Assembly (NCBI RefSeq): GCF_000299575.1
Contig: NZ_AMGO01000001.1
Location: 1 to 64,000, forward strand
DNA from: Oceaniovalibus guishaninsula JLT2003
GTDB taxonomy: Bacteria > Pseudomonadota > Alphaproteobacteria > Rhodobacterales > Rhodobacteraceae
DNA: 64,000 nt
Direction: 5' to 3'
Shown: positions 2,195-35,868 of the stretch, in pieces
Layout of the letters: each line of letters begins with the position of its first letter
How positions within the stretch are numbered: position 1 is the stretch's first letter
Translations under genes and position numbers: made by a program
The notes under the pieces: model-generated
Told to the model about the DNA's origin: nothing
Databases searched by the model: none
Seen by the model: only the letters and a program-made list of their open reading frames with translations

Positions 2195-2223
2195 TAGGTG
2201 GCGTCGGGCGCGGGGGGTGTCAA
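2195..2223 (-). promoter_or_regulatory. Candidate promoter of thrS
   Basis: On the minus strand a perfect -35 hexamer TTGACA (plus-strand TGTCAA at 2218-2223) lies about 80 bases upstream of the thrS ATG. At 17 bases spacing the -10 would be the weak CACCTA, and a CCTAGG follows at 19. The -35 is convincing, the -10 is not. Confidence 0.4.
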
Positions 2224-2264
2224 GCGGGATTGCCCCCGCCGCAAGCCCGTTTAGGGTGCGCCGC

Positions 2265-11278: not shown

Positions 11279-13531
11279 TCAGGCGACCTGTTCCGCGCGC
11301 AGCACATTGCCCAGCCAGTCCGTCACCGCGCGGCGCACCGACTGATCGCCGGCCGCGCGCGATGCGTCGATGGCCGCGCGCGCGTCTTCCAGGTTGACCC
11401 GCCGCAGCAGCGACTTGACCGGCCCGATGGATGCGGGCCGCATCGACAGCGCCCGGACCCCCATCGCCGCCAGGCACACCGCCTCGACCGGGCGGCCCGC
11501 ATCCTCGCCGCAGAACGACAGCGGCGTCCCGGCCTCTCGGCACCGCGCGACGATCTGCTCCACGAAGGTCAGGAAGCTGACGTTCAGCGTGTCGTAACGC
11601 CGGCGCACGCGCTCGTTCTCGCGGTCAGCGGCGAAGAAGAACTGCTTGAGGTCATTCCCGCCGATCGAGATGAAATCCGCCAGCGCAAAGAACTGCTCGG
11701 GCGCGAAGGCCAGGCTGGGCGTCTCCAGCATGGCGCCGATCTCGACCTTCTCGGGCACCTTGTGGCCCAGCCGCCGCTCGCGCTCCACCTCGTCCAGCAG
11801 ATGCGCGCGCGCCTCGCGGAACTCGTCGAATTGCGCGACGAAGGGAAACATCACCGACAGGGGCCGTCCGGCCGCCGCGCGGATCAGCGCCTGCAACTGC
11901 ATCCGCATGATGCCAGGCTTGTCCAGCGTCAGCCGGATCGCGCGCCAGCCCAGCGCCGGGTTCGGCTCGTCCACCCGGCGCATATAGGGCAACACCTTGT
12001 CCGACCCTATATCGAGCGTTCGGAACACCACCCGCCGCCCGTTCGCGGCATCCATCACCCGCGCGTAAAGGGCGGCCAGATCGCCGCGCTTGGGCACGTT
12101 CGGCCGGGCCAGAAACTGCAACTCGGTCCGAAACAGCCCGACCCCCTCGGCGCCCGATCCTTCCAGACTGGGCAGGTCGGCCATCAGCCCCGCATTCATC
12201 GTCAGGCTGACCACCGCCCCGCAAAGCGACTGCGCCGGAAGCCCGCGCAGATCGGCATAGCGTTCCTGCGCCTTGGCCTGCATCGCCATCTTGTCGCGGA
12301 ACGCCGTCGTCACGTTCTCGGACGGGCGCAGATGCACGATGCCCTGATCGCCGTCCACAAGGATGGGATCGCCGTTCAGCGCCTCGGTCGCCAGACCGTC
12401 CGCATGGATGACCAGCGGAATCGCCAGCGCCCGTGCCACGATCACCGCATGACTGCCCACCGATCCCTGTTCCAGCACGATCCCGCGCAGCTTGCGGCCG
12501 TATTCCAGCAATTCGCCCGGCCCGATATTGCGCGCCACAAGGATCGGACGGTCGGGCATCGCGGCGCCCGTATCGTTGCCCTGACCCGACAGGATCCGCA
12601 GCAGCCGGTTGGCCAGATCGTCCAGATCCTGCAACCGCTCGCGCATATAGGCGTCGGGCACCGATTCCATGCGGTTGCGCGCCGACGATTGTTCCTTCTC
12701 GACCGCCGCCTCGGCCGACAGCCCGCGGGCGATGTCGGCGCACATCCGCCGGATCCAGCCGCGCGAATGGGCGAACATGCGATAGGTCTCCAGCACCTCG
12801 CGCTGGTCCTTCTCGGCGAGCGCGATGCCGGTCATCTGGTCGTCGATGGATCCGCGCAGCGTCTCGATGGCGGCCATCAGGCGCTCGGTCTCGGCCTCGG
12901 GGTCGTCGGCGATGGGGTTCGTCACCACGACGCGCGGCTCGTGCAGCCAGACGCGCCCCTCGGCGATGCCCTCCTGCGCGACGGTGCCCTTGAACATCGC
13001 CGGGTTCTGGTGACGCGCCGACAGCGCCGCGCCCTCGCCGATGAAGGCGCCCAGCTCGGTCATCTCGGCCAGCACCATCGCCACGACTTCCAGGCCGTAA
13101 ACCTCGTCGTCGGAATATTGCCGCGCCTCCTTCGACTGCACGACCAGAACGCCCAGCCTTTCGCCAAGCCGCTGGATCGGCACCCCGAGGAAGCTGGAAT
13201 AGATCTCCTCGCCCGTCTCGGGCATGTAACGGAACCCGCGCGTGGACGGCGCATCGGCGGTGTTGATCGGCCTGTTCTTGCGCGCGACGCGCCCTACCAG
13301 TCCCTCGCCCAGACGCAGGCGGGTCTTGTGCACCGCTTCCGGCCGCAGCCCCTCGGTCGCGCAAAGCTCCAGCGTATCGGCATCGCGGAACAGATAGATC
13401 GAACACACCTCGGTATGCATCGACGTGGCGATGATCGTGGTGATCCGGTCCAGCCGCGCCTGTCCCGCGCTGCTTTCGGCCAAAGCCTCGCGCAGACGAC
13501 CCAGCAACTTGCGGCTTTGGCTATCGGCCAT
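11279..13531 (-). CDS. ptsP: Nitrogen PTS phosphoenolpyruvate phosphotransferase (EI-Ntr)
   Basis: Autophosphorylates from PEP and passes the phosphate to NPr in the regulatory nitrogen phosphotransferase system. The protein is 750 aa. A GAF domain occupies residues 1 to about 170 (IIATSMHTEVCSIYLF...). It is followed by the PEP-utilising N-terminal domain, the phospho-histidine domain with His361 in GSHAVIVARALAIP, and the PEP-binding barrel (GSGAEGVGLFRTELQFL, SIGGNDLKQFF, SFCGEDAGRP). The frame stays open far upstream by chance; the ATG at 13531 begins the conserved MADSQSRKLLGRLRE N terminus. In relatives it sits directly next to lysC; here a LuxR gene intervenes. Confidence 0.95.
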   Translation of the reverse strand: MADSQSRKLLGRLREALAESSAGQARLDRITTIIATSMHTEVCSIYLFRDADTLELCATEGLRPEAVHKTRLRLGEGLVGRVARKNRPINTADAPSTRGFRYMPETGEEIYSSFLGVPIQRLGERLGVLVVQSKEARQYSDDEVYGLEVVAMVLAEMTELGAFIGEGAALSARHQNPAMFKGTVAQEGIAEGRVWLHEPRVVVTNPIADDPEAETERLMAAIETLRGSIDDQMTGIALAEKDQREVLETYRMFAHSRGWIRRMCADIARGLSAEAAVEKEQSSARNRMESVPDAYMRERLQDLDDLANRLLRILSGQGNDTGAAMPDRPILVARNIGPGELLEYGRKLRGIVLEQGSVGSHAVIVARALAIPLVIHADGLATEALNGDPILVDGDQGIVHLRPSENVTTAFRDKMAMQAKAQERYADLRGLPAQSLCGAVVSLTMNAGLMADLPSLEGSGAEGVGLFRTELQFLARPNVPKRGDLAALYARVMDAANGRRVVFRTLDIGSDKVLPYMRRVDEPNPALGWRAIRLTLDKPGIMRMQLQALIRAAAGRPLSVMFPFVAQFDEFREARAHLLDEVERERRLGHKVPEKVEIGAMLETPSLAFAPEQFFALADFISIGGNDLKQFFFAADRENERVRRRYDTLNVSFLTFVEQIVARCREAGTPLSFCGEDAGRPVEAVCLAAMGVRALSMRPASIGPVKSLLRRVNLEDARAAIDASRAAGDQSVRRAVTDWLGNVLRAEQVA

Positions 13532-13870
13532 GTTCCCGTCCGTTTCCCGGCCATCCCGCGCCGAGCGATCCGTATAGATCACTCCGCCCCGAAAGGGGAG
13601 AGTGCATCGTCGTCCCGGTTGAAACAACCGCCATCGACACGCCTGTCCGCACCAGCGGCCCCCCGTCCGGGGGGATTTACGGGTCGGCGGATACCGGCCT
13701 ATCGTTCGTGCATTGCATGAAGTGATACTCCGGTGAAGGAGGCTTCGGCGGACAGGACGGCAGCGTCGCGACCCACCGCGTCGTCCCGTCCATCTGTCGA
13801 AGCCTCCGATTCCGTCCTTTGCCGTTGCGTCAAGTGCGGTTATCATGCGCCACCCGAACCCGGAGGCGGC
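13532..13870. other. 339-base divergent intergenic region, ptsP / luxR
   Basis: The longest non-coding stretch in the window. It should hold the promoters of ptsP (leftward) and of the LuxR gene (rightward). Visible structures are a small CCCC-GAAA-GGGG hairpin (13587-13598), a C6/G6 hairpin (13659-13664 with 13669-13674), a TGCATTGCA near-palindrome (13710-13718), and the 70-base hairpin listed next. I could not assign -35/-10 pairs with confidence. Confidence 0.6.
13738..13807 (+). other. Long imperfect hairpin in the luxR leader
   Basis: The outer arms are perfect: GGAGGCTTCG (13738-13747) and CGAAGCCTCC (13798-13807). Inside, GACAG (13751-13755) pairs with CTGTC (13794-13798), GACGG (13756-13760) with CCGTC (13786-13790), and CGCG (13767-13770) with CGCG (13777-13780). 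Nearly the whole 70 bases can fold into one stem with small bulges. There is no T-run after it. It ends 63 bases before the LuxR start. Possible roles are a leader structure, a small RNA or a mobile palindromic element. Confidence 0.55.
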
Positions 13871-15906: not shown

Positions 15907-16968
15907 TCACTTCATCAGTTGCGCACGCGACGTGTCGATCTCATGCGTCACCTGCTCGACCGTCCGCGTCAGCGCGTCATAGGCTTCCTCGCCGCCCTCG
16001 ACGTTCTGCTTGAACCAGTCATAGACGGGCGCCGCCGCGTCCTTGAACGCCTGCTTTTCCTCGGCGCTGGGGGTATAGACGTCGCCCCCCGCCTCGGCGA
16101 ACTCCCGATAGGCGTCGATGGACTTGCGCTTGGGGCTGGCGAAAGTCGCCTGCTGCAACTGATAGAACCCGTCCGACACCACCTGTTGCAGATCCTCGGG
16201 CATCGACCGGAACGCCTCGGCGTTCATGAACCACAGCGCGCCCATATAGGAATGGCCGTCCAGCGTGATGTATTTCAGCCCGGCATCGGGAAACTTCATC
16301 CCCATGATGTCGGTGATGCCGTTCTGCGTGCCCTCGACCACCCCCGTCTGGAACGAGGTGAAAAGCTCGGGCCACGGGATCGGCGTGGGCGAGGCACCCA
16401 TCGCCTTGACCAGTTCCTGCGGCAGGTCGGCGACGACGGTGCGGATCTTCAGCCCCTCCAGGTCGGCGGGCGTCTGGATGCGGCGCTCGGTATTGGCGAA
16501 GTTGCGCCAGCCGCCGGTATTGCCGATGGTCATCAGCTTGATCTGATCGCCCGACGTTTCGCTCACCATGTCCTGCATGGTGGTGACGAAGGGGCTGCCG
16601 TTTTCCAGCACCCCTTCCGCCACGCGGTCGTTGTCCATCAGATAGGGCAGATCCAGCACCTGAATGAACGGAAATATCCCGCTCGCCCCGCCGGACGTGG
16701 CGATGAAGATGTCGATGGATCCGTCCGCCACGCCTTGCAGGCATTCCGCCCCGTTGGAACAAAGCTGCGTGCCGATGAACAGCTCGACCGCGATCTGGCC
16801 GTTGCTGGCGCGTTCGACATAATCCTTGAAGACGATCAGCCCGTCGTAATCCTCGTCCTGCTCGTTGGAATTGGCGGTCGCGCGCAGCGTGTATTCCTGC
16901 GCTGCGGCCGACAGGGCCGTTCCGGCGACAAGTGCGGCGGCAAGCGCCGTTCTGGCGATGGTCAGCAT
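15907..16968 (-). CDS. TRAP transporter substrate-binding protein (sulfo-sugar cluster)
   Basis: A 353 aa periplasmic DctP-family receptor. The signal peptide is MLTIARTALAAALVAGTALSAAAQ, cleaved around residue 23. The conserved arginine that normally contacts the substrate carboxylate or acid group is visible in DLEGLKIRTVVADL, and SFQTGVVEGTQNGITD is the typical C-lobe signature. A close cysteine pair (QLCSNGAEC) could form a disulfide. It is the last gene of the smoC-smoB-smoA-dctQ-dctM run, 29 bases after the large permease. From context I infer a sulfonated sugar such as sulfoquinovose or its glyceryl glycoside as ligand, but the sequence alone does not prove this. Confidence 0.88.
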   Translation of the reverse strand: MLTIARTALAAALVAGTALSAAAQEYTLRATANSNEQDEDYDGLIVFKDYVERASNGQIAVELFIGTQLCSNGAECLQGVADGSIDIFIATSGGASGIFPFIQVLDLPYLMDNDRVAEGVLENGSPFVTTMQDMVSETSGDQIKLMTIGNTGGWRNFANTERRIQTPADLEGLKIRTVVADLPQELVKAMGASPTPIPWPELFTSFQTGVVEGTQNGITDIMGMKFPDAGLKYITLDGHSYMGALWFMNAEAFRSMPEDLQQVVSDGFYQLQQATFASPKRKSIDAYREFAEAGGDVYTPSAEEKQAFKDAAAPVYDWFKQNVEGGEEAYDALTRTVEQVTHEIDTSRAQLMK

Positions 16969-16997: not shown

Positions 16998-18287
16998 TCA
17001 GTCTGCGAACCCCGTCAGCCGGGGCACGGTCATGGATATGGCGGGAATATAGGTGATGAGGAAGATCATCAGGATCTCGACGGCCAGAAACGGCAGGATC
17101 GCGCGGCTGATCGTCTCGACCTTCTCGCCCGACACGGACGACGCGACAAACAGCACCAGCCCCATCGGCGGCGTCGCCAGCCCCACGGTCAGGTTCACTG
17201 ACATGATGATGGCGAAATGAATGGGATCGACCCCCATGCCGACGAAGACCGGCCCCAGGATCGGCCCCAGAATGATGATCGCCGGCCCCGCATCCAGGAA
17301 CATGCCCACCGCGAACAGCAGCAGGTTGATCAGGAACAGCAGGATCAGCGGATTGTCCGTCAGCGACAGGATGAAGGCGGCCATCATCTCGGGCGCGTGG
17401 GACAGCGACACCACCGTCTTGAACGCCATCGCCGCCCCCACCAGCAGCAGCACCACGGCCGAGGTGATCGCCGCGCGCGACAGCACCTCGGGGATCTCGG
17501 ACAGTTTCAGCGTCCGCATCACGAACAGGCCGATGAACAGCGCATAGGCCACGGCGACGGCGGCGGCTTCGGTCGGCGTGAAGATACCCAGCAGGATGCC
17601 GCCCATGATGATCACCGGCGTCAGCAGCGGAAAGAACGCGCGCAGGCTGGCCCGGCCGCGCTCGCCCCATGTCTGCTTTCGGGTGGCGACCGGAAAATCG
17701 TAGCGGTCCGCCATCACCTTGACGACCGCCATCAGCCCCAGCCCCACCAGAACCCCCGGCACGATCCCCGCCAGAAACAGCGCCGCGACCGATTCGCCCA
17801 TCACGTAGGCATAGATGATCATGATGCCCGAAGGCGGGATGATCGGCCCGATGACGGAGCTGGCCGCCGTGATCGCGGCGGCGAAGCGGCGGGTATAGCC
17901 CTGCTTCTCCATCGCCGGGATCAGCATGGATCCCAGCGCCGACGTATCGGCCACCGCCGACCCCGACAGCCCCGCGAACAGCATCGACGACAGCACGTTC
18001 ACATGCGCCAGCCCGCCGCGGAAATGCCCCATCAGCGCCTGGCTGAACTCCACCAGCCGCAGCGTGATCCCGCCCTTGTTCATCAGCTCGCCCGCCAACA
18101 TGAAGAACGGGATCGCCATCAGCGGAAAACTGTCCATCCCGTTATAGACGTTGCGGTAAAGCAGCACCAGGTCGCGCTCCTGTCCCGCCAGCCACAACAG
18201 GATGCCCGGCGCGAACAGCAGCCCGAAGAACACCGGCAGCCCCGCCAGCAGGAACACCAGAAAGACGGGCAGGAACCAGATCAGCAT
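16998..18287 (-). CDS. TRAP transporter large permease, DctM type
   Basis: A 429 aa DctM-like integral membrane protein, the Na+-coupled transport subunit, with about 12 hydrophobic segments. Characteristic pieces are AIPFFMLAGELMNKGGITLRLVEFSQALMGHFRGGLAHVNVLSSMLFAGLSGSAVADTSALGSM, IPPSGIMIIYAYV and GIFTPTEAAAVAVAYALFI. The start lies one base beyond the stop codon of the small-permease gene, so translation is coupled. It works with the neighbouring receptor and small permease. Confidence 0.93.
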   Translation of the reverse strand: MLIWFLPVFLVFLLAGLPVFFGLLFAPGILLWLAGQERDLVLLYRNVYNGMDSFPLMAIPFFMLAGELMNKGGITLRLVEFSQALMGHFRGGLAHVNVLSSMLFAGLSGSAVADTSALGSMLIPAMEKQGYTRRFAAAITAASSVIGPIIPPSGIMIIYAYVMGESVAALFLAGIVPGVLVGLGLMAVVKVMADRYDFPVATRKQTWGERGRASLRAFFPLLTPVIIMGGILLGIFTPTEAAAVAVAYALFIGLFVMRTLKLSEIPEVLSRAAITSAVVLLLVGAAMAFKTVVSLSHAPEMMAAFILSLTDNPLILLFLINLLLFAVGMFLDAGPAIIILGPILGPVFVGMGVDPIHFAIIMSVNLTVGLATPPMGLVLFVASSVSGEKVETISRAILPFLAVEILMIFLITYIPAISMTVPRLTGFAD

Positions 18288-18288
18288 G

Positions 18289-18870
18289 TCATTCGGCCAT
18301 GATCTCGTCGGGCGGGGCTTCCAGCGGCTTGAGGTCGCGCGCCCCGCCCAGGCTCAGCAGCGCGCGCAGGATCAGCTCGATATTGACGATCAGCAACAGC
18401 ACCATGCCCAGCAGGAACGCCGCCATCATCCAGCTTCGCGGGATGCGGAACCAGCCGTCGGGCAGCGGCAGGTAAAGCGACGCGGTCGCGAACTGCCCGC
18501 CGAAGCCCGTCACCTCGGCCCAGCCGATCCGCACCGCGAAGGCCAGCACGACCCCCGCAATGGCCAGCAGCACCAGCGACAGTGCCGCTGCCGCGGCCGG
18601 GGGCAGGGCGCGCGGCAGCATGTCGATGGCCACGAACCCGCCGCGCCGATAGGCCACCGGCGCCATCAGCCCGGTCATCCACAGCATCATGAAGCGCGCC
18701 GCCTCGTCGGGCCAGGGCAGGGCGCTGTTGAGCACATAGCGCGCGAAGACCTGCACCAGCGTCACCGCCACCATCAGCGCGACGGCGACGATGGCGACCC
18801 ACCGCCCCACGGGCAGCACGGCGTCGTTGAACGCCTGGAATGGCACAAGCAGGGCCCGCAGGATACCCAT
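18289..18870 (-). CDS. TRAP transporter small permease, DctQ type
   Basis: A 193 aa DctQ-family protein with four hydrophobic segments: VGRWVAIVAVALMVAVTLVQVFARYVL, the segment around LMAPVAYRRGGFVAIDML, ALSLVLLAIAGVVLAFAVRIGW, and WMMAAFLLGMVLLLIVNIELIL. It pairs with the DctM subunit just downstream. It starts 39 bases after the flavin reductase gene, consistent with one operon. Confidence 0.9.
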   Translation of the reverse strand: MGILRALLVPFQAFNDAVLPVGRWVAIVAVALMVAVTLVQVFARYVLNSALPWPDEAARFMMLWMTGLMAPVAYRRGGFVAIDMLPRALPPAAAAALSLVLLAIAGVVLAFAVRIGWAEVTGFGGQFATASLYLPLPDGWFRIPRSWMMAAFLLGMVLLLIVNIELILRALLSLGGARDLKPLEAPPDEIMAE

Positions 18871-18909: not shown

Positions 18910-19425
18910 TCAATCCGCGCTTTGGAATATCCCATAGCGTCCGGCCGAGAATATCAATGGCGGCCCGTCGCGATAGTCCGCATTCAGCACCCGCCCCACG
19001 ACGATGGCATGATCGCCCGCATCGTGCACCGCCTGCGTCGCGCAGTGAAACCGCGCCAGCGTGCCCTCGATCAGCGGGGTGCCGTCATCGGCCAGCCGCC
19101 AGTTCAGCCCGTCGAAGGCCTGCCCCTCGCGGACGAATCGCTGCGACAGCGCGCGCTGCTCGGCACCCATGACGTGAATGGCGAAATGGGCGGCCTCGAC
19201 GAAGGGATCGTAGCGGCTCGACATCTTTGCGGGACACCACAGCACCAGCGGCGGGTCCAGCGACACGGATGCGAAACTGTTGGCGGTGATGCCCAGCGGT
19301 CCGCCCGGCACGGCACAGGTCACGACCGTGACGCCGGTGGCGAAGCGGCCCAGCGCGTCGCGCAGCGACCGCCCCGGATCGTCCGTCTCGGGGTAGCGCG
19401 ATGGGCCGACGATATGGACGCTCAT
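18910..19425 (-). CDS. smoA: FMN reductase, SmoA-like
   Basis: A 171 aa flavin reductase-like protein (HpaC/DIM6 fold) expected to supply FMNH2 to the monooxygenase two genes upstream. Signatures are LGRFATGVTVVTC, GITANSFASVSLDPPLVLWCPAKMSS and FAIHVMGAEQ. It overlaps the aldo/keto reductase stop by four bases (ATGA), so the reductase, aldo/keto reductase and monooxygenase are translationally linked. The gene content and order match the smoA-smoB-smoC trio of the sulfoquinovose monooxygenase pathway known from Agrobacterium. The symbol rests on that context, since many two-component monooxygenases have such reductases. Confidence 0.75.
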   Translation of the reverse strand: MSVHIVGPSRYPETDDPGRSLRDALGRFATGVTVVTCAVPGGPLGITANSFASVSLDPPLVLWCPAKMSSRYDPFVEAAHFAIHVMGAEQRALSQRFVREGQAFDGLNWRLADDGTPLIEGTLARFHCATQAVHDAGDHAIVVGRVLNADYRDGPPLIFSAGRYGIFQSAD

Positions 19426-20303
19426 GCCACTTCGTGACCCAGCGCCAGCGTATAAAGGCGAAACCAGGTCTGCCGGTCCATCGTCACGCGCGCGGCTTGC
19501 CCGATGCGCGCGATCCGCTCGGGGCTGTTGGTGCCCATCACCGGCACGATGCCCGCCGGATGCGCCAGCAGCCAGGCCACCGCGACCGCCGCCCGGTCGG
19601 TGCCCTGTTCCTCGGCCACCGCGTCCAGCGCCGCCTGCAATGGCCCCGCATCCGTCATCAGCGCGCCGCCGCCCAGGGGCGACCACGCCATCGGGCGCAA
19701 CCCGCGTTCCTGCACCGCCGCCAGATCGCCGTTCGTGAACGGATCGAGGCAGGCAAGGCTCAACTCGATTTGGTTCGTGACAAGCGGCGTTTCCATCGCG
19801 CCCTGCAACAGCGCGAAATCCCAGGGCCGGAAGTTCGACACGCCCACCGCGCGCACCTTGCCAGACCGCACCGCATCGTCCAGCGCGCCGCCGGTCTCGG
19901 CCCGGTCCATCATCGGATCGGGCCGGTGGATCAGCAGCAGGTCGATCGTGTCGATCCCCATCGCGCGCAGCGACGCGTCGATGCTGGCCTCGATATGGGC
20001 GCGCGACGTGTCGTAATGCTTCACCGTCACGGCCGAATGGCGGCCCATCGGCGCCACGATCCCGCATTTGGTGACGATCTCGACCCGGTCGCGCAGGGCA
20101 GGGGTCAGCGCCGCGCCCAGCAATTCCTCGGCCCTGTAGCCGCCATAGATGTCGGCCTGGTCCAGCGTGGTGATGCCCTGATCCAGACACGCCTCGATCT
20201 TGGCGCGGACATGGCCGGGCGACGTGTCGGCATCGTCGCCCAGCCGCCACATCCCGTAAACGATGCGGCTGACCGATATGTCGCCCAGCTGAATGCGCTC
20301 CAT
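19422..20303 (-). CDS. smoB: Aldo/keto reductase, SmoB-like (6-oxo-glucose reductase)
   Basis: A 293 aa NADPH-type aldo/keto reductase. In the sulfo-SMO pathway SmoB reduces 6-dehydroglucose, released when sulfite is cleaved from sulfoquinovose, to glucose. The catalytic tetrad is visible: Asp and Tyr in TTLDQADIYGGY, Lys in EIVTKCG, His in LLLIHRPD. The segments SRIVYGMWRLGDDADTSP and the C-terminal TWFRLYTLALGHEVA look to me like the SmoB subgroup (from memory, not a search). The start overlaps the monooxygenase stop by one base (TGATG). Confidence 0.78.
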   Translation of the reverse strand: MERIQLGDISVSRIVYGMWRLGDDADTSPGHVRAKIEACLDQGITTLDQADIYGGYRAEELLGAALTPALRDRVEIVTKCGIVAPMGRHSAVTVKHYDTSRAHIEASIDASLRAMGIDTIDLLLIHRPDPMMDRAETGGALDDAVRSGKVRAVGVSNFRPWDFALLQGAMETPLVTNQIELSLACLDPFTNGDLAAVQERGLRPMAWSPLGGGALMTDAGPLQAALDAVAEEQGTDRAAVAVAWLLAHPAGIVPVMGTNSPERIARIGQAARVTMDRQTWFRLYTLALGHEVA

Positions 20304-21457
20304 CAACGTCTCTCTCCGTTGCCCAGCGGCGTCGCGGGCATGTCCGCAGGCACCCTGCCATAGACCTGCGGCAGGGAACAGGTCTTCAACTGCGGCAATA
20401 TGCGTTGCCCGATCGACCGGCATTCGTCCAGATGCGGATAGCCCGAGAAGATGAAGGCGCGGATGCCCATGCGGCGATACGCCTCGATTTCGGACAGGAC
20501 CTGATCGGTGCTGCCCACCAGTGCCGCCCCGCATCCCGACCGCGCCCGCCCGATACCCGTCCACAGATGCCGCTCGACATAGCCGAAGCGGTCGGCCAGC
20601 TCGCGCGCCCGCGCCTGATGGCTGACGCCCAGGCTGGTCGCATCGTGCGCCCGGCCGCGGATCAGCGCGCCGTATTCGTCGTCCAGCGCGCTGACCAGAT
20701 GCTCGGCATAGTCCCGCGCCTCGGCTTCGGTGTCGCGCACGATCACATGCACGCGCAGCCCGTAATCCAGCGTCCGCCCGTGACGCGCCGCCGCGGCATG
20801 CGCGTCCTTCATGCGCCGGGCGATCTGCTCTTTCGGTTCGGGCCACATCAGATAGACGTCGCAATGCTGCCCGCACAGATCCAGCGCGTCGGGACTGTAG
20901 CCGCCGAAATAGAGCAGCGGGCCGCCCCTTTGATAGGGCTTGGCGGGGTCCGTCGCGACGCCGTGAAAGCTGTAGATCTCCCCGTCGAAGTCGATGCTGT
21001 CCCGCGTCCAGGCTTGCTTGAGGATCTCGACCACCTCGCGCGACCGTCGATAGCGATAGGCGCTGTCGGCCGTCTCGCCCGGAAAGTCCGACGAGATGAC
21101 GTTCAGCGTCAGCCGCCCCTTCAGCATGTGGTCCAGCGTCGCCACCGTCCGCGCCAGCATCACCGGCTGCATCTCGCCGCAGCGGATCGCGGCGAGGAAG
21201 GTCATCCGCTCGGTCAACGGCGCGCAGCCCGCGACGAAGCTCAGCGTGTCCTGTCCGACCTGATACGAGGACGGGCACAGGATGTTGCCGAAGCCCTGCC
21301 GCTCGGCCTCCAGCGCGATGGCGCTGCAATGCGCCCAGGACGATCGCAGCGCGCCGTCCGGCACCCCCAGCAGCGCGTAATCGTCCGAACACAGGGCCGC
21401 GAACCACGCGATTTCGGCCGCGTCCAGATCCTGCGACGTGACGGGAACGACGGTCAT
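20303..21457 (-). CDS. smoC: FMNH2-dependent sulfo-sugar monooxygenase, SmoC-like
   Basis: A 384 aa LLM-class flavin-dependent monooxygenase related to alkanesulfonate monooxygenase SsuD. SmoC desulfonates sulfoquinovose to 6-dehydroglucose and sulfite. Features are the N-terminal WFAALCSDDYALLGVPD, NVISSDFPGETADSAYRYRRSREVVEILKQAW in the barrel, GGPLLYFGGYSPDALDL, and LWTGIGRARSGCGAALVGSTDQV near the C terminus. The tail TPLGNGERR is also as I recall it for SmoC-type proteins. The ATG at 21457 has AGGAGG 4 bases upstream. It is first in the operon, divergent from the GntR regulator. A generic alkanesulfonate or dimethylsulfone monooxygenase is the main alternative. Confidence 0.78.
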   Translation of the reverse strand: MTVVPVTSQDLDAAEIAWFAALCSDDYALLGVPDGALRSSWAHCSAIALEAERQGFGNILCPSSYQVGQDTLSFVAGCAPLTERMTFLAAIRCGEMQPVMLARTVATLDHMLKGRLTLNVISSDFPGETADSAYRYRRSREVVEILKQAWTRDSIDFDGEIYSFHGVATDPAKPYQRGGPLLYFGGYSPDALDLCGQHCDVYLMWPEPKEQIARRMKDAHAAAARHGRTLDYGLRVHVIVRDTEAEARDYAEHLVSALDDEYGALIRGRAHDATSLGVSHQARARELADRFGYVERHLWTGIGRARSGCGAALVGSTDQVLSEIEAYRRMGIRAFIFSGYPHLDECRSIGQRILPQLKTCSLPQVYGRVPADMPATPLGNGERR

Positions 21458-21492
21458 GCGGCCTCCTACGGAACTCTTACGCGAATATGACT

Positions 21493-21521
21493 TGCCTAAC
21501 ATCGCGGCTTCGGTGCATCAA
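21493..21521 (-). promoter_or_regulatory. Candidate promoter of the smoC operon
   Basis: On the minus strand TTGATG (plus-strand CATCAA, 21516-21521) and TAGGCA (plus-strand TGCCTA, 21493-21498) are separated by 17 bases. The layout resembles the tRNA promoters in this window (TTGNNN-17-TAGNNN). The -10 lies 36 bases upstream of the smoC ATG. Confidence 0.5.
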
Positions 21522-21531
21522 TCCTGCATCA
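21514..21531. promoter_or_regulatory. Direct repeat, candidate GntR operator
   Basis: TGCATCA occurs twice (21514-21520 and 21525-21531), 11 bases apart, so on the same DNA face. It overlaps the -35 of the predicted smoC promoter. Binding of the adjacent GntR protein here would block the operon. This is inferred from position only. Confidence 0.4.
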
Positions 21532-21548
21532 TTTCAGCGTGTGGTTCC

Positions 21549-22235
21549 TTGTCCGATATTTCCCCGCCCCCCGTCTGGCGTCAGATCGCCGATCTTGTCG
21601 TGCGTCAGATCGCCTCCGGCGAACTGCGCGAAGGCGACCGGCTGCCGCCCGAACGCCGCATGGCGCAGGACCACGACATCGCCGTCGGCACCCTGCGCCG
21701 CGCCTTGGCCGACCTTACCGATCGCGGCCTGATCGAACGGCGGCAGGGGTCTGGAAACTACGTGCGCCACGCCCGGCAAATCGGCGGAATGTATGAGTTT
21801 TTTCGGCTGGAACTGGTGCAGGGCGGCGGTCGCCCCGATGCCGAGATCCTGGATGTCGCGCGCCTGGCCAAGCCCCATGACGCCCCCGCGTTCGGCCCCG
21901 CCCCCGACGCCTACTGCATCCGCCGGCTGCGCCTTCTGGACGGCATCCGGGTCGCGGCCGAGGAAATCTGGCTCGACGCCACGCATGCGCTTGATCCGGC
22001 GTCGATCCAGCCCTCGCTCTACCAGACCTACCGCCGCCAACTCGGCCTCCGCATCATCCGAACAGAGGACCGCATCGGCATCGACACCATGCCGCAATGG
22101 TCTGATATTGCTATGAAATCGGCAACCTGCTGCCATGTCGCGCGCGTCTCCTGGGGGCAGGACGGACAGCCCGTCGAATATTCCCGCACCTGGTTCGACG
22201 CCGACCTCGCGCGCTACGTCTCGCGCATCGGCTGA
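21549..22235 (+). CDS. GntR family transcriptional regulator (HutC-like)
   Basis: A 228 aa regulator, probably a ligand-responsive repressor of the divergent monooxygenase operon. A GntR winged helix lies at about residues 5-72 (VWRQIADLVVRQIASGELREGDRLPPERRMAQDHDIAVGTLRRALADLTDRGLIERRQGSGNYV). A UTRA-type effector domain covers about 90-225 (RRLRLLDGIRVAAEEIWLDATHA...VEYSRTWFDADLARYV). The TTG at 21549 is the most likely start because the helix-turn-helix begins a few residues later; upstream in-frame ATGs would overlap the smoC start. It is followed after 7 bases by the Gfo/Idh/MocA gene, so it is co-transcribed with it. Confidence 0.85.
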   Translation: MSDISPPPVWRQIADLVVRQIASGELREGDRLPPERRMAQDHDIAVGTLRRALADLTDRGLIERRQGSGNYVRHARQIGGMYEFFRLELVQGGGRPDAEILDVARLAKPHDAPAFGPAPDAYCIRRLRLLDGIRVAAEEIWLDATHALDPASIQPSLYQTYRRQLGLRIIRTEDRIGIDTMPQWSDIAMKSATCCHVARVSWGQDGQPVEYSRTWFDADLARYVSRIG

Positions 22236-22242
22236 GGGGCCC

Positions 22243-23328
22243 ATGCCGCAACTCGTGACCTACGGCATCATCGGCTGCGGCATGATGGGGCAGGAACATC
22301 TGCGCAATATCGCGCTTCTCCCCGACGCCCGCGTCGGTGCCATCTTCGAACCGGACCCCACCATGCGCGCCGCCGCCCAGGCCATCGCTCCGAACGCCCT
22401 GATGGTCGGCGGGATCGGGGAATTGCTGGCCGTCCCCGCCCTGGATTGCGTGCTGATCGCCTCGCCGAACGACCTGCATGTGCAGCAGATTCAAGAGGTT
22501 GCGGCGCGACGTGCATTGCCGTTGATGGTCGAGAAGCCGGTATTCACCGACCCGAAGGATGCCGCCCGCGTCCGCTCGCTGGCCTATCCCGCGCCGCTTT
22601 GGGTGGCAATGGAATACCGCTATATGCCGCCGATCCGCGCGCTGATCGACAGCGTCGACGCGGCGACGGGCGGCCCCTTGATGCTGACCATCCGCGAACA
22701 CCGCTTTCCGTTCCTGCCGAAGGTCGGCGATTGGAACCGCTTCTCTGCACGCTCGGGCGGCACGTTGGTGGAAAAGTGCTGTCATTTCTTCGACTTGATG
22801 CGCCTTCTTCTACGGGCCGAGCCGGTCCGCGTGATGGCGTCGGCGGGACAGGCGGTCAACCACAAGGACGAACGGATCGACGGCCGCGTGCCCGATGTCT
22901 GGGACCACGGCTATGTCATCGTCGATTTCGACACCGGCGCCCGCGCCATGCTGGAACTGTGCATGTTCGCGGAAGGCAGCCGTTATCAAGAGGATATCAG
23001 CGTCATCGGTCCCCGCGGCCGGATCGAGGCGTTCGTTCCCGGCCCGACCCGCTTCTGGCCCGGTCATCTTGGCGCGCCCCCGGTGCCCCGCGTCGTCGTC
23101 AGCCCCCGCGCACCCAAAGGGCCGCAGGATGTCGCCGTTCTGGTCGATCCAGTCCTGCTGGATGCCGGAGATCACAACGGATCCACCTACTATCAGCACG
23201 AACGCTTCGTCAGGGTCGTCCGCGGCGAAGGCAGGATCGAGGTCGGTCTGCTCGACGGCATCCGCGCGGTCGAGATGGGACAGGCCGCGCAGCGTTCCGC
23301 CGAAACGGGTCAGGCTGTCACGTTGTGA
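22243..23328 (+). CDS. Gfo/Idh/MocA oxidoreductase, candidate NAD-dependent sulfoquinovosidase
   Basis: A 361 aa Gfo/Idh/MocA protein. The N-terminal Rossmann fold has GIIGCGMMG (residues 8-16) and the MVEKPVF motif near residue 97. The C-terminal alpha/beta domain includes RSGGTLVEKCCHFFDLMRLL. Members oxidise or reduce sugars, and some act as NAD-dependent glycosidases; the GH188 group cleaves sulfoquinovosides by transient oxidation. Its placement with the regulator of a SmoABC-like operon, and the absence of a GH31 sulfoquinovosidase here, make that a reasonable hypothesis. The ATG at 22243 has GAGGGG upstream. A plain sugar or inositol dehydrogenase is the alternative. Confidence 0.8.
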   Translation: MPQLVTYGIIGCGMMGQEHLRNIALLPDARVGAIFEPDPTMRAAAQAIAPNALMVGGIGELLAVPALDCVLIASPNDLHVQQIQEVAARRALPLMVEKPVFTDPKDAARVRSLAYPAPLWVAMEYRYMPPIRALIDSVDAATGGPLMLTIREHRFPFLPKVGDWNRFSARSGGTLVEKCCHFFDLMRLLLRAEPVRVMASAGQAVNHKDERIDGRVPDVWDHGYVIVDFDTGARAMLELCMFAEGSRYQEDISVIGPRGRIEAFVPGPTRFWPGHLGAPPVPRVVVSPRAPKGPQDVAVLVDPVLLDAGDHNGSTYYQHERFVRVVRGEGRIEVGLLDGIRAVEMGQAAQRSAETGQAVTL

Positions 23329-23330: not shown

Positions 23331-24490
23331 AGAAGGCGCCGCAACCCTCTGAAATGATAGATGTCCGCGACCTGCGGCTGTTCCGCGAGGGCAAGATCGG
23401 GGCAGCGGTCGAACAGCACCCGCAAGGCGATCTGCATCTCCATCCGCGCCAGCGGGGCGCCCACGCAGAAATGCGGCCCCGCGCCGAAGGCCAGATGCGG
23501 CGCAGGCGCGTGACGCGCCCACCGACCCGGATCGAACCTGTCGGGATCTTCATAGACCGAAGGATCCCGGTTCGTCGCCCCCAGCAGCAGACCCACCCGG
23601 TCGCCGCGCGCGAAATCGTGCCCCATGAACGTCAGCGGCTCGTAGACCCAGCGCGTGAACAGGTGCAGCGGCGGATCAAAGCGCAGCGCCTCCTCGACCG
23701 TCGCGGCGGGATCGTCGGGCCGCATCCGCGTGCCCAGCAAGACGTTCACGGCATTGCCCAAGGCGTGCACCGTCGCTTCGTGCCCGGCATTCAGCAGCAG
23801 GATGGCGGTGGCGATCATCTCGGGCTCGGACAGGCGGTCGCCATCGGCATGGGCGGCGATCAGGTGCGACAGCAGATCGTCGCCCGGATCGCGTCGCCGC
23901 CGGTCGATATGATCGCGCAGGAAGTCCGAAAAATCTGCCGCAGCCCCGGCCGCCGCCACCTCGTCCGCCAGCGTCCGGCCCGCGCGATACATGCCCGTCA
24001 TCGCCCCCGACCAGCGCAGCAGATCGGGGGCCGTAGCCTCGGGCACGCCCAGAAGACGCGCGATGACGATGACGGGAACATGCCGCGCGTAGCGATCCAG
24101 CAGGTCGAACGGGCCCGCCGGAAAGCCGTCGATCAGGGTGTGGCTGAGCGCCTCGATCTCGGGTGCCAGGGCGGCGATCCCGCGCGACGTGAAGGCCCGC
24201 AGGACCAGGCCGCGCAGCCGCGTATGGCGCGGGCGTTCCAGTTCCAGCATGGAATGATCCTCGACCGCATAGAAGGGTGCCAGATGTTGGGGCGGGGTCT
24301 GGCGCAACTCCTCCGGCGTTTCGCGGCCCAGCCGAGTGTCGCGGATCAGCGCGCCGACGGCCGCGTGGCTGGTGGCCACGGTCAGGTCGTAATCCTGCCA
24401 CCGGACCAGATCGCCCATCGCGCGGATGCGGTGATAGAATGGATAGGGATCGGCGACAAAGGCCGGATCCTGGGGATTTTGGGTGACCAT
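23318..24490 (-). CDS. Cytochrome P450
   Basis: A 390 aa soluble bacterial P450. Visible motifs are the I-helix oxygen-activation segment AGHEATVHALGNAV, the ExxR motif in EEALRFDPP, and the heme loop FGAGPHFCVGAPLARMEM with the cysteine ligand at about residue 342. Substrate unknown. No ferredoxin or ferredoxin reductase gene is adjacent, so it must borrow redox partners. Start choice: AAGG lies 6 bases before the ATG at 24490, and a second ATG sits 6 bases further up. It is convergent with the oxidoreductase and divergent from dctP. Confidence 0.93.
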   Translation of the reverse strand: MVTQNPQDPAFVADPYPFYHRIRAMGDLVRWQDYDLTVATSHAAVGALIRDTRLGRETPEELRQTPPQHLAPFYAVEDHSMLELERPRHTRLRGLVLRAFTSRGIAALAPEIEALSHTLIDGFPAGPFDLLDRYARHVPVIVIARLLGVPEATAPDLLRWSGAMTGMYRAGRTLADEVAAAGAAADFSDFLRDHIDRRRRDPGDDLLSHLIAAHADGDRLSEPEMIATAILLLNAGHEATVHALGNAVNVLLGTRMRPDDPAATVEEALRFDPPLHLFTRWVYEPLTFMGHDFARGDRVGLLLGATNRDPSVYEDPDRFDPGRWARHAPAPHLAFGAGPHFCVGAPLARMEMQIALRVLFDRCPDLALAEQPQVADIYHFRGLRRLLVTT

Positions 24491-24580
24491 CTGCATCCTT
24501 TCGGCATGCCGCGCCCCACGCACCTTGGCAAGTCCGGTCGGTTCCGCGTCCTTCCGGCGAAAAGCCTTGGATTGCGCCGC

Positions 24581-24608
24581 GCGAACGGTCATCCTGCGAA
24601 CCGGTCAT
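24581..24608 (+). promoter_or_regulatory. Direct repeat upstream of dctP
   Basis: GCGAACGGTCAT (24581-24592) and GCGAACCGGTCAT (24596-24608) are near-identical direct repeats, 43 bases before the dctP start. This could be a regulator-binding site for the TRAP operon. I found no clear sigma-54 type -24/-12 element. Confidence 0.35.
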
Positions 24609-24650
24609 GCCCCGAACGGGCAGACAAGCCATTACAACCGGGAGAACGAA

Positions 24651-25661
24651 ATGAGATATCTTGCCACAACCGCGATCGTCATGACGCTTGCGGCCGGTGC
24701 TGCGACGGCGCAATCGGGCACGACGGGGTGCGACGACGGCGAAACGGTCATCAAGTTCAGCCACGTCACCAACAGCGACAAGCATCCCAAAGGGATCGCC
24801 GCGTCCTTGTTGCAGGAGCGCGTCAACGCCGAGATGGACGGCAGGGCCTGCATGGAGGTCTATCCGAACTCGACGCTTTACGACGACGATCAGGTGTTGC
24901 AGGCGATGTTGCAGGGCGACGTGCAGATGGCCGCCCCGTCGCTGTCGAAGTTCGAGACGTTCACCAAGCAGTTCCAAATCTTCGATCTGCCCTTCATGTT
25001 CGTGAACATCGACGCCGTGGACCAGTTCCAGGCCGGCGAGACGGGCCAGGCGATGAAGGATTCGATGGAGCGTCGTGGGCTGAAAGGTCTGGCCTATTGG
25101 CACAACGGGCTGAAGCAGATGTCGGCGAACAAGCCGCTGGTGACGCCCGAGGACGCGGCGGGTCTGAAGTTCCGCGTGCAGCCCAGCGACGTGATCGTGG
25201 CGCAGTTCGAGCAACTGGACGCCTCGCCGCAGCCGATGGCCTTCTCCGAGGTTTACGGCGCCCTGCAAACCGGCGTCGTTGACGGACAGGAGAACACCTG
25301 GTCCAACATCTATGGTCAGAAGTTCTTCGAAGTTCAGGACGGCGCGACCGAGACGAACCACGGTGTTCTCGATTATCTGGTCGTGACGGCGTCGGACTGG
25401 TGGGACGGACTCGACCCCGAGATGCGCGAGCAGCTCGACACCATCGTTCAGGAGGTGTCGAGCGAACGTAATGCCGCCGTCACCGAGGTGGACAACGAGG
25501 CCCGTCAGGCGATCCTCGATGCGGGGGGCACGATTCGCGAATTGACGCCCGAGCAGCGGCAGGCCTGGGTCGATGCGATGAAGCCCGTCTGGGAACAGTT
25601 CGAGGAAGGCGTCGGCGCCGACAACATCGCGGCCGCGCAGGCCATCAACGAATCGATGTAG
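24651..25661 (+). CDS. dctP: C4-dicarboxylate-type TRAP substrate-binding protein
   Basis: A 336 aa periplasmic receptor for, probably, succinate/malate/fumarate. The signal peptide is MRYLATTAIVMTLAAGAATAQ. Conserved DctP segments are IKFSHVTNSDKHPKGIAA, VYPNSTLYDDDQVLQAMLQGDVQMAAPSLSKFE, and LANKPL-like SANKPLVTPEDAAGLKFRVQPSDV with the substrate-binding arginine. FSEVYGALQTGVVDGQENTWSNIY is also conserved. It looks closely like the Rhodobacter capsulatus DctP type. The ATG has GGGAGA upstream. It is followed by a hairpin and then dctQ and dctM. No dctBD-like sensor pair is adjacent. Confidence 0.92.
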   Translation: MRYLATTAIVMTLAAGAATAQSGTTGCDDGETVIKFSHVTNSDKHPKGIAASLLQERVNAEMDGRACMEVYPNSTLYDDDQVLQAMLQGDVQMAAPSLSKFETFTKQFQIFDLPFMFVNIDAVDQFQAGETGQAMKDSMERRGLKGLAYWHNGLKQMSANKPLVTPEDAAGLKFRVQPSDVIVAQFEQLDASPQPMAFSEVYGALQTGVVDGQENTWSNIYGQKFFEVQDGATETNHGVLDYLVVTASDWWDGLDPEMREQLDTIVQEVSSERNAAVTEVDNEARQAILDAGGTIRELTPEQRQAWVDAMKPVWEQFEEGVGADNIAAAQAINESM

Positions 25662-25668
25662 GCCATAC

Positions 25669-25700
25669 ACGGGCGGTCCGGGTCTGTCCGGTCCGCCCGT
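25669..25700 (+). other. Stem-loop between dctP and dctQ
   Basis: A 13-bp stem with a single T-T mismatch (arms 25669-25681 and 25688-25700, ACGGGCGGTCCGG / CCGGTCCGCCCGT) and a 6-base loop lies 8 bases after the dctP stop, with no T-run. Such a structure would protect the dctP mRNA 3' end or partly stop transcription. Either would give more receptor than permease. Confidence 0.75.
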
Positions 25701-25742
25701 CGGCCTAATCCGGTCGCTGGGACCATCAGGGGAGGGACGACG

Positions 25743-26450
25743 ATGAGTGCGCATCGTCACGAGGCGACATCGGGCTTCGGCCATATCGTCACCGAAATCG
25801 AGGAAACCGCTATCGCGTTGCTGCTGGGACTGATGACGCTGGTCACGTTCGTCAACGTGGTGCTGCGCTATGGCTTCAACCACTCGCTGATCTGGGGGCT
25901 GGAGCTTGTGCTGATCCTGTTCGCCTGGCTTGTGATCTTCGGGGTCAGCTATGCGTTCAAGGTCACGGCGAATCTGGGGGTCGATGCCGTGACCGGGCTG
26001 CTGAAGCCCCGCGCGCGACGGGTCTGCGCGCTTTTGTCGGCGCTGGTGTGTCTGGCCTACGGCGTGCTGCTGCTGAAGGGCGCGTGGGATTTCTGGGCGC
26101 CGTTCGCGGGGCTGGACCGCACGGCCGGGCGCTGGTTTCCGCTGGGCTTCGAGGAGACGCGCAGCAATTCGTTCTATGTCACCGACCGCATCCCGATCCC
26201 GTTCGGCGCCGACTGGCTGAGCCGGACCTTCAATTCCTACATGGACGGCAACACCTTGGTCGTGGAAGCCTATGACAAGCTGCCCCGCTTCATCCCCTAT
26301 CTGATCCTGCCGTTCGGTTGCGCGCTGATCCTTTTGCGGATGGCGCAGGCCACCTGGCGTATCGCACGCGGGCGGCAGGAAAGCCTGATCGTCAGCCACG
26401 AGGTCGAGGATGCGGTCAACGAAGCCTCGATCACGCTGAAGGACGCCTGA
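25743..26450 (+). CDS. dctQ: TRAP transporter small permease
   Basis: A 235 aa DctQ protein, longer than the 160-190 aa average because of a loop between helices 3 and 4 (about residues 125-175, FWAPFAGLDRTAGRWFPLGFEETRSNSFYVTDRIPI...), as in the true C4-dicarboxylate systems. Four hydrophobic segments are visible, starting at AIALLLGLMTLVTFVNVVLRYGF and ending at FIPYLILPFGCALILLRM. The start has GGGGAGGGACG upstream. One base separates its stop from the dctM start. Confidence 0.92.
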   Translation: MSAHRHEATSGFGHIVTEIEETAIALLLGLMTLVTFVNVVLRYGFNHSLIWGLELVLILFAWLVIFGVSYAFKVTANLGVDAVTGLLKPRARRVCALLSALVCLAYGVLLLKGAWDFWAPFAGLDRTAGRWFPLGFEETRSNSFYVTDRIPIPFGADWLSRTFNSYMDGNTLVVEAYDKLPRFIPYLILPFGCALILLRMAQATWRIARGRQESLIVSHEVEDAVNEASITLKDA

Positions 26451-26451
26451 C

Positions 26452-27888
26452 ATGGAAGTCGCCCTTCTTTTCGTGATGATCATCGGCCTGCTGTTGCTGG
26501 GCGTACCCATCGCGGTGTCGCTCGGCTTCAGCTCGATGATGTTTTTGCTGTGGTTCTCGGACACGTCGCTGGCGGCCGTCTCCAAGCAGTTCTACGACGC
26601 GATGGCCGCGCATTATACGCTGTTGGCGATCCCGTTCTTCGTGCTGGCCTCGTCCTTCATGTCGACGGGCGGCGTGGCGCGGCGGATCATCCGGTTCTCT
26701 ATCGCATTGGTCGGCCATCTTCCGGGCGGGCTGGCCATCGCGGGCGTCGTCGCGTGCATGATGTTCGCGGCCCTTTCGGGATCGTCGCCCGCGACTGTCG
26801 TGGCCATCGGCACCATCGTCATCGCCGGGATGCGGCAGGTCGGCTATTCCAAGGAATTCGCCGCCGGCGTCATCTGCAACGCGGGAACCCTGGGCATCCT
26901 GATTCCGCCCAGCATCGTCATGGTCGTCTATGCCAGCGCCACGGATGTCAGCGTCGGGCGGATGTTCCTGGCGGGCGTCATTCCCGGCCTTCTGGCGGGA
27001 TTCATGCTGATGGGCACCATCTATGTCATCGCGCGGGTCAGAAACCTGCCCAAGGGTGAGTGGCAGGGCTGGGGCGAGGTCTGGGCCGCGGGCCGCGACG
27101 CGGGATGGGGCCTGTTCCTGATCGTCATCATCCTGGGCGGCATCTATGGCGGGATCTTCACCCCGACCGAGGCAGCCGCCGTCGCCGCCGTCTATGCGTT
27201 CCTGATCGCCTGCTTCATCTACCGCGACATGGGGCCGCTGGCGGCGCGGGGGCATCCGGCATCGTCGGACTATCTGGAACCCGGCAAGCGCAGCCTGTCG
27301 GCGGCAGCGGCCCCTGCGGCGCAGGCGACGCTGCTGCAAAAGCCCTGGGCGCTGTTGACGGCCTTCGTGCATCGGGATACGCGCGATACGCTGCTGGAGG
27401 CGGGCAAGCTGACCATCGTACTGATGTTCATCATCGCCAATGCGCTGATCCTCAAGCACGTTCTGACGGACGAGCAAATCCCGCAGCAAATCGCGGCGGC
27501 GATGCTGGATGCCGGGTTCGGTCCGGTGATGTTCCTGATCATCGTGAACGTCATCCTGCTGATCGGCGGTCAGTTCATGGAACCGTCCGGCCTGATCGTG
27601 ATCGTGGCGCCGCTGGTCTTTCCGATCGCCGTGCAACTGGGGATCGACCCGATCCATCTGGGGATCATCATGGTCGTCAACATGGAGATCGGCATGATCA
27701 CGCCGCCCGTCGGCCTGAACCTGTTCGTGACCAGCGGTGTGGCCAACATGCCGATGATGGCGGTCGTTCGGGCGGCGCTGCCGTTCCTGGGCGTGTTGTT
27801 CGTCTTCCTGATCCTGATCACCTATGTGCCGGTCATCAGCACCTGGCTTCCCACCACGTTCATGGGGCCCGAGATCATCGTGCGCTGA
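26452..27888 (+). CDS. dctM: TRAP transporter large permease
   Basis: A 478 aa DctM-type membrane protein, the substrate-translocating subunit. It is about 50 residues longer than most. The extra length is a hydrophilic loop around residues 255-310 (ARGHPASSDYLEPGKRSLSAAAAPAAQATLLQKPW) between membrane segments, also known from C4-dicarboxylate DctM proteins. Family pieces include AIPFFVLASSFMSTGGVARRIIRF, GSSPATVVAIGTI, IPPSIVMVVYA, GIFTPTEAAAVAAVYAFLIA and NMEIGMITPPVGLNLFV. It is the last gene of dctPQM. Confidence 0.94.
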   Translation: MEVALLFVMIIGLLLLGVPIAVSLGFSSMMFLLWFSDTSLAAVSKQFYDAMAAHYTLLAIPFFVLASSFMSTGGVARRIIRFSIALVGHLPGGLAIAGVVACMMFAALSGSSPATVVAIGTIVIAGMRQVGYSKEFAAGVICNAGTLGILIPPSIVMVVYASATDVSVGRMFLAGVIPGLLAGFMLMGTIYVIARVRNLPKGEWQGWGEVWAAGRDAGWGLFLIVIILGGIYGGIFTPTEAAAVAAVYAFLIACFIYRDMGPLAARGHPASSDYLEPGKRSLSAAAAPAAQATLLQKPWALLTAFVHRDTRDTLLEAGKLTIVLMFIIANALILKHVLTDEQIPQQIAAAMLDAGFGPVMFLIIVNVILLIGGQFMEPSGLIVIVAPLVFPIAVQLGIDPIHLGIIMVVNMEIGMITPPVGLNLFVTSGVANMPMMAVVRAALPFLGVLFVFLILITYVPVISTWLPTTFMGPEIIVR

Positions 27889-34847: not shown

Positions 34848-34926
34848 CATCCGGCAGCGGTTTGCAGGGGAACGGCGCGGGCGGCGCGCCGTTGAACGGG
34901 CATTGCGTGTAATCCACGAGGACCGG

Positions 34927-35868
34927 ATGCCCGACGAGAAGATGAAGATTGCGCTTGCCGGAATCGGCGAGATCGCGCGCCAGCAGCATATTCCCGCGCT
35001 TCGAAACAGTTCCGACTGGCAGCTTGCCGCCGCCATCAGCCGCAACGCGACCGTCGATGGCGCGTCCAATCACAAGGACATCGACGCGTTCCTGAACGAC
35101 AGGGGCGACATCGAGGCGATTTCGCTGGCCCTGCCGCCCGGTCCGCGTTTCGACTATGCGGTGAAGGCGATCGAGGCCGGGCTTCATGTGATGATCGAGA
35201 AGCCGCCCGCCGTCACGCTGGCGCAGTGTCATCTGCTGCGCGATCTGGCGGACAGAACGGACGCCACATTCTTCGTGTCGTGGCATTCGCGCATGGGCAG
35301 GGCCATCGACGAGGCGCGTCGCCGGCTGAAGGGCGCACGGCTTGACCGATTGCGCATCGACTGGCGCGAGGACGTCAACCAGTTCCATCCTGGACAGGAT
35401 TGGATCTTCGAGGCGGGCAATCTTGGGGTCTTCGATCCCGGCATCAACGCGATGAGCATTCTGACCGCCATCCTGGACCGGCCGGCCTTCGTGTCGTCTT
35501 CGGACCTGTATTTCCCGAAAGGACGCGAGGCGCCCATCGCCGCCGACCTGCGCTTCGACAACGGCACCGGCGCCGAGATGACCGCGAAATTCGACTGGCG
35601 CCATGACGGCGAAGCGCGTTGGGACATTGAGTTCGAGACGGATCGCGGCAATTTCCGGCTGGTTTGCAGCGGGTCCTATATCGAAGCGGACGGCCAGCGG
35701 ATCGGCGACGGAATGACGGACGAATATCCGCTGCTCTACGCGCTATTTGCCGATCTGGTACGGCAGGGCCGCAGCGAGACAGATTTCAGTCCGATGATCC
35801 AGGTCGCCGACGCCTTTCTTCTGGGACGCCGGCACGAAGTGGCGGCGTTCGACTGGCGCAAGGACTGA
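34927..35868 (+). CDS. Gfo/Idh/MocA sugar dehydrogenase (galactose/arabinose 1-dehydrogenase-like)
   Basis: A 313 aa NAD(P)-dependent oxidoreductase. A Rossmann domain has KIALAGIGEIARQQHIPALR and HVMIEKPPAVTL (EKP motif). The C-terminal domain carries REDVNQFHPGQDWIFEAGNLGVFDPGINAMSIL, which resembles L-arabinose/D-galactose 1-dehydrogenases of alphaproteobacteria (Entner-Doudoroff-like sugar oxidation). No lactonase or dehydratase is adjacent, so substrate assignment is tentative. Start: ATG at 34927 with ACGAGG 5 bases upstream. Confidence 0.82.
   Translation: MPDEKMKIALAGIGEIARQQHIPALRNSSDWQLAAAISRNATVDGASNHKDIDAFLNDRGDIEAISLALPPGPRFDYAVKAIEAGLHVMIEKPPAVTLAQCHLLRDLADRTDATFFVSWHSRMGRAIDEARRRLKGARLDRLRIDWREDVNQFHPGQDWIFEAGNLGVFDPGINAMSILTAILDRPAFVSSSDLYFPKGREAPIAADLRFDNGTGAEMTAKFDWRHDGEARWDIEFETDRGNFRLVCSGSYIEADGQRIGDGMTDEYPLLYALFADLVRQGRSETDFSPMIQVADAFLLGRRHEVAAFDWRKD

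Follow-up and report, generated by a model that had tools for sequence, protein, structure and literature searches.

A predicted GH188 NAD+-dependent sulfoquinovosidase gene, sqgA, in the sulfo-SMO cluster of Oceaniovalibus guishaninsula JLT2003

Introduction

Sulfoquinovose is the sulfur-containing sugar found in the membranes of plants and algae. The smo cluster of Agrobacterium (SmoA–SmoI) combines a GH31 sulfoquinovosidase (SQase) with an ABC importer. GH31 and GH188 are the sulfoquinovosidase families named in the available text of PMC13372026, where the co-localization of SmoC and SmoB serves as the criterion for a sulfo-SMO cluster. The founding members of GH188 are ArSqgA (PDB 8qc3, 8qc5 and 8qc6) and FlSqgA (8qc2 and 8qc8). 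As far as the available text of Kaur et al. 2023 (PMC10755693) goes, FlSqgA acts on 4-nitrophenyl sulfoquinovosides of either anomeric form, alpha or beta, but not on 4-nitrophenyl glucosides or the beta-glucuronide, no other sulfonated sugar is mentioned, and the catalytic, sugar-contact and sulfonate-binding residues of ArSqgA are named. The same text describes GH188 as near-universal in the sulfo-SMO clusters of the marine Roseobacter clade, bacteria earlier reported to be without GH31 sulfoquinovosidases. According to the accessible part of a 2026 review, which cites Ma et al. 2025, GH188 is widespread among marine Roseobacteraceae. A GH188 subgroup with a tyrosine at the position of ArSqgA L170 appears in the portion available of PMC11465081.

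Here, we analyse the first 64,000 nucleotides of contig NZ_AMGO01000001.1 of O. guishaninsula JLT2003 (hereafter the window). An initial annotation, made from the letters alone, had proposed that a Gfo/Idh/MocA gene next to the regulator of a SmoABC-like operon may encode an NAD-dependent sulfoquinovosidase, which would make the cluster self-sufficient from sulfoquinovosyl glycerol to glucose.

Results

The gene, which we call sqgA (22243..23328, plus strand), runs from an ATG at 22243 to a TGA ending at 23328, is preceded by a ribosome-binding-like GAGGGG and encodes 361 amino acids. Pfam profiles place a Gfo/Idh/MocA Rossmann domain and the corresponding C-terminal domain in the product, and no GH31 catalytic domain (PF01055) was found in it. 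When SqgA was searched against all PDB chains, 37 distinct sequences matched at E ≤ 0.001, led by 8zn9 (535 bits, 242 of 361 residues identical, 67%, full length), ArSqgA 8qc3 (354 bits, 172 of 355 identical, 48%, full length) and FlSqgA 8qc2 (354 bits, full length). The fourth match, inositol 2-dehydrogenase 4hkt, scored 67 bits, and all others scored 67 or less. The PDB title of 8zn9 reads 'A vast marine sulfonate-based carbon cycle fueled by novel sulfoquinovosidases', and the placement of this entry in GH188 rests on similarity. No paper naming 8ZN9, 7OLF, 7OH2 or 7BBY was found in the literature searched; we take Ma et al. 2025 to be the paper describing 8zn9.

Among the six NCBIfam hits of SqgA, none was a GH188 model, and the best, the inositol 2-dehydrogenase model TIGR04380, gave 102 bits against a curated cut-off of 355, which makes the name 'inositol 2-dehydrogenase' unusable. 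An identity as an inositol or sugar-acid dehydrogenase, the clustering that was to be checked for, is thus rejected by the 354–535 bits to sulfoquinovosidases against at most 67 to anything else in the PDB, together with the sub-threshold TIGR04380 score. Full-length similarity to characterized SqgA enzymes, with the same gap in scores, argues for membership of GH188 and supports the proposal that this Gfo/Idh/MocA protein is an NAD-dependent sulfoquinovosidase. The host genome encodes five Gfo/Idh/MocA proteins, SqgA included. At E ≤ 1e-5, the only match to SqgA in the genome is SqgA itself; the best matches among the other four show 25–29% identity over partial length. One further gene of the family lies in the window at 34903–35868 (plus strand) and, judged by its sequence, is not GH188.

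The residues published for ArSqgA could be followed into SqgA by alignment. The catalytic and sugar-contact residues K107, Y136, E189, H193 and H321 correspond to K98, Y125, E177, H181 and H311, and the sulfonate triad R166, L170 (through its backbone) and K172 corresponds to R154, L158 and K160 and is intact. The leucine at L158 rules SqgA out of the tyrosine-variant GH188 subgroup described in the available part of PMC11465081. In total, eight of the nine published residues fit a single numbering offset, and all eight are identical in SqgA. The ninth, 'Glu163' in the available text of PMC10755693, falls on a valine in the ArSqgA chain and on R151 in SqgA, while the adjacent glutamate aligns with E152; this is probably a numbering slip by one. 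All 81 sequences compared, namely SqgA and 80 relatives (the best 80 of at least 584), carry the same residue at each of the eight positions and at E152.

The AlphaFold model of SqgA, built from 22 sequences, has a pLDDT of 88.9, although the loop 160–164 beside the sulfonate site falls under 50. The predicted structure has the two-domain fold of the 8qc structures, and its 12 best PDB matches are all sulfoquinovosidase chains (8zn9 and the 8qc entries), ahead of inositol dehydrogenases. The query-normalized TM-scores of the model were 0.93–0.95 for all but one of these 12 listed chains, the exception being 8qc8_D with 0.86. They include 0.94–0.95 for 8zn9 and 0.94 for 8qc6, the complex of ArSqgA with NAD+ and sulfoquinovose.

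The remark that the window contains no GH31 gene can be extended to the entire genome (2.9 Mb, estimated to be 99.99% complete), in which PF01055 had 0 matches; 6 of 14 control genomes were positive. The complete absence of GH31 matches leaves no GH31 sulfoquinovosidase encoded outside the window either, and we reject any part for GH31 in this host. Across 295 genomes sampled from the one family, the window's own included, GH31 was found in 22 and in 12 of the 123 that carry SmoC; GH31 and SmoC were not significantly associated in either direction (p 0.26, a Fisher value to be taken as a guide only, the genomes being non-independent). Two related loci carry a GH31 gene near the cluster. In one (L121, genome G211), it adjoins smoA at 11302–13770 (minus strand); its best match is neutral alpha-glucosidase AB (241 bits), it resembles alpha-glucosidases of other kinds, and none of its 44 matches at E ≤ 1e-30 was labelled YihQ or sulfoquinovosidase, as judged by label. 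In the other (L122, genome G112), a GH31 gene at 1234–3798 (plus strand) lies about 7.5 kb from sqgA.

The genes diverging from the regulator follow the order smoC–smoB–smoA–dctQ–dctM–dctP, all on the minus strand. SmoC (20303..21457) is a predicted FMNH2-dependent sulfoquinovose monooxygenase: in the PDB search, it matched 7oh2 with 732 bits and 7olf with 715 bits, the next match scoring 204, and the titles of both entries name an FMNH2-dependent monooxygenase for the oxidative desulfurization of sulfoquinovose. The SmoC model was poor (pLDDT 63.5) and was used only for reading PDB titles. SmoB (19422..20303), a predicted aldo-keto reductase for 6-dehydroglucose, matched 7bby and 7bbz with 437 bits, the next group scoring 215; both entries are presumably SmoB structures. 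SmoA (18910..19425) matches flavin reductases, and its gene adjoins smoB in relatives. SmoC and SmoB are therefore co-localized in the window, as the available text of PMC13372026 requires of a sulfo-SMO cluster.

We compared the neighbourhood with that of 80 loci, the best 80 of at least 584 relatives retrieved by six peptide patterns and hence biased to close relatives, counting a neighbour as present when it had a match of at least 40% identity within the flanks. By this measure, SmoC was matched in 79 of the 80, SmoB in 70, SmoA in 74 and the regulator in 78; some of the misses are contig ends, as in L036, which is cut inside smoC. Regulator and sqgA stand together beside a divergent smoC in 75 of the best 80 loci; two of the others are arranged otherwise, and in three either the regulator or smoC went unmatched. 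Because the arrangement is kept in 75 of 80 related loci, it is not due to chance. A cytochrome P450 gene (23318–24592, minus strand) is convergent with sqgA and overlaps its 3' end by 11 bases. Its product had no match in the flanks of any of the 80 related loci, and it is rejected as a cluster member.

Within the 295-genome sample, GH188 (E ≤ 1e-60) was detected in 146 genomes and SmoC (E ≤ 1e-150) in 123. Both were present in 121 genomes, GH188 only in 25 and SmoC only in 2. The association is strong but one-sided, because 25 of the 295 genomes carry GH188 without SmoC. As for the two genomes with SmoC only, the contig of one (G281) ends inside the regulator gene, and its sqgA may simply have been cut off. 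In the other (G094), open reading frames that, by inspection, read like an ABC transporter operon occupy the place of sqgA.

Upstream of sqgA, on the same strand, lies a gene for a GntR/UTRA regulator (21549..22235), recognized by its Pfam GntR and UTRA domains. Its start is uncertain: the frame is open from 21438, the GntR match begins at codon 48 of that frame, and the TTG at 21549 was chosen. Since its stop codon, ending at 22235, is separated from sqgA by only 7 bases on the same strand, the two genes are very likely co-transcribed, as first proposed. Between the regulator and smoC lies a shared divergent promoter region (21458..21548) with an element conserved in relatives. There it consists of TTGCsTAnCA followed by two ATCAA/ATCAT repeats 11 bases apart; as an operator-like element of the form TTGATGTAnATCAAT-AG-TGTATCAATT, it is strongly conserved in relatives (loci L001–L080). 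Of 75 smoC/regulator regions, 48 contain TTGATnnnnATCAA and 66 contain TGTATCAAT, against 0.01 and 0.04 expected from simple letter shuffles, a control that leaves shared ancestry aside; common descent contributes to this conservation. The window has neither TTGATnnnnATCAA nor TGTATCAAT in exact form and retains only two half-sites, ATCAA (21517) and ATCAT (21528). TTGC[CG]TAnCA was found in 56 of 70 regions of 60–160 bases, the window among them, and at 21492–21543 of the window the aligned element is recognizable in diverged form. A natural reading is that the element would be the operator of the GntR regulator, which probably governs transcription in both directions from the shared promoter.

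Downstream of smoA, the window encodes a TRAP transporter: the small permease DctQ (18289..18870, minus strand; Pfam DctQ), the large permease DctM (16998..18287, minus strand; Pfam DctM, TIGR00786 over its cut-off) and the solute-binding protein DctP (15907..16968, minus strand, with a predicted start; Pfam DctP). In the flanks of the best 80 of at least 584 relatives, DctP was matched in 51, DctQ in 52 and DctM in 54, with 2 of those for DctM a long way from the cluster; all three genes were present in 51. In 52 of the 80, DctQ comes immediately after SmoA, no more than 285 bases away. The other 28 have no DctQ after smoA, some of them being cut by contig ends; in the remainder, another importer must serve. 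A second stretch at 24483–27888 (plus strand), divergent from the P450 gene, reads by inspection like another TRAP transporter, with DctP-, DctQ- and DctM-like open reading frames. Five TauE-type permeases are encoded in the genome, none of them in the window.

Two loci have the transporter without a complete smoABC. In one (L125, genome G143), regulator, sqgA and TRAP genes stand together, the 14 kb read shows no smoABC and the genome has no SmoC relative at E ≤ 1e-5. In the other (L126, genome G040), sqgA, regulator, TRAP genes, smoA and smoB are present and smoC is absent from the locus, and the genome holds only a 31% relative of SmoC. Both loci fit the TRAP transporter as an importer of sulfoquinovosyl glycerol or sulfoquinovose. 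Because they keep sqgA, regulator and TRAP genes without a complete smoABC, they suggest a partial module. We regard it as an even chance that this lineage takes up sulfoquinovosyl glycerol by the smo-linked DctPQM and that GntR, SqgA and TRAP together make up a module for uptake and release, able to occur without complete SmoABC. The literature searched, whose reach stopped short of key papers and supplements, contained nothing relevant tying a TRAP transporter to sulfoquinovose pathways.

Discussion

From sequence, residues, predicted fold and neighbourhood, we infer with a probability of roughly 0.95 that the gene at 22243–23328 is sqgA and encodes a GH188 NAD+-dependent sulfoquinovosidase. 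Sequence by itself does not fix its precise substrate. An enzyme of the same family might act mainly on another sulfonated glycoside, such as beta-linked sulfoquinovosides or a sulfofucoside, and the cleavage of both alpha- and beta-4-nitrophenyl sulfoquinovosides by FlSqgA, given in the available text of PMC10755693, lends this some colour. However, the neighbouring SmoC is closely related to sulfoquinovose monooxygenases, GH188 is carried by 121 of the 123 SmoC genomes and 8zn9, the closest structure, bears the name sulfoquinovosidase in its title; we consider a different main substrate very improbable. Less probable still is an ordinary Gfo/Idh/MocA NAD-dependent dehydrogenase of inositol or sugar oxidation that stands beside the smo cluster by chance, which has in its favour the common fold and distant matches to 4hkt (67 bits) and TIGR04380 (102 bits), but these scores are far below those of the sulfoquinovosidases and below curated cut-offs, the sulfonate-binding triad of GH188 is intact, sqgA keeps its place beside smoC in 75 of 80 loci and the genome's four other Gfo/Idh/MocA proteins reach only 25–29% identity over partial length.

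As a GH188 sulfoquinovosidase, SqgA would have sulfoquinovosyl glycerol as its substrate, probably brought in by the neighbouring TRAP transporter, and would probably work in the cytoplasm. Following the enzymology published for its homologues, bound NAD+ would oxidize the sulfoquinovosyl unit at C3, elimination across C1–C2 would expel the aglycone and water would then add, and the NADH formed would re-reduce C3, so that sulfoquinovose is set free and NAD+ is not consumed overall. Using reduced flavin from SmoA, SmoC would then remove sulfite from sulfoquinovose, and SmoB would convert 6-dehydroglucose to glucose. With SqgA and the SmoABC set present and PF01055 absent from the genome, the genes therefore cover the route by which sulfoquinovosyl glycerol would yield glucose and sulfite. 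The self-sufficiency first proposed for the cluster thus stands at the level of genes (SqgA, SmoC, SmoA, SmoB and a transporter), its uptake step being the probable one by TRAP.

In principle, then, this genome should be able to take glycerol-bound sulfoquinovose all the way to glucose and sulfite. The GH188 identity of SqgA corrects a generic 'oxidoreductase' label, and GH188 is a useful marker for sulfoquinovoside use in bacteria without GH31 sulfoquinovosidases. The finding is correct but ordinary, the association of GH188 with sulfo-SMO having been in print since 2023.

The cluster of the window shares homologues of SmoC, SmoB and SmoA with the Agrobacterium smo cluster and differs from it in having GH188 and a TRAP transporter where the latter has a GH31 SQase and an ABC importer. 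The closest known sulfoquinovosidase, 8zn9, still differs from SqgA in 33% of residues. ArSqgA is more distant and has the same catalytic and sulfonate-binding residues, and FlSqgA matches SqgA equally well in bits; in the available text of PMC10755693, the Arthrobacter AK01 gene behind GH188 lies in a sulfo-EMP cluster, whereas sqgA here lies in a sulfo-SMO cluster. A further likeness is to the Roseobacter sulfo-SMO clusters of Kaur et al. 2023, which also pair this pathway with a GH188 gene and lack GH31; compared by the text and the Fig. 5 legend of that paper (PMC10755693), they show no difference from the cluster in the window that we could name.
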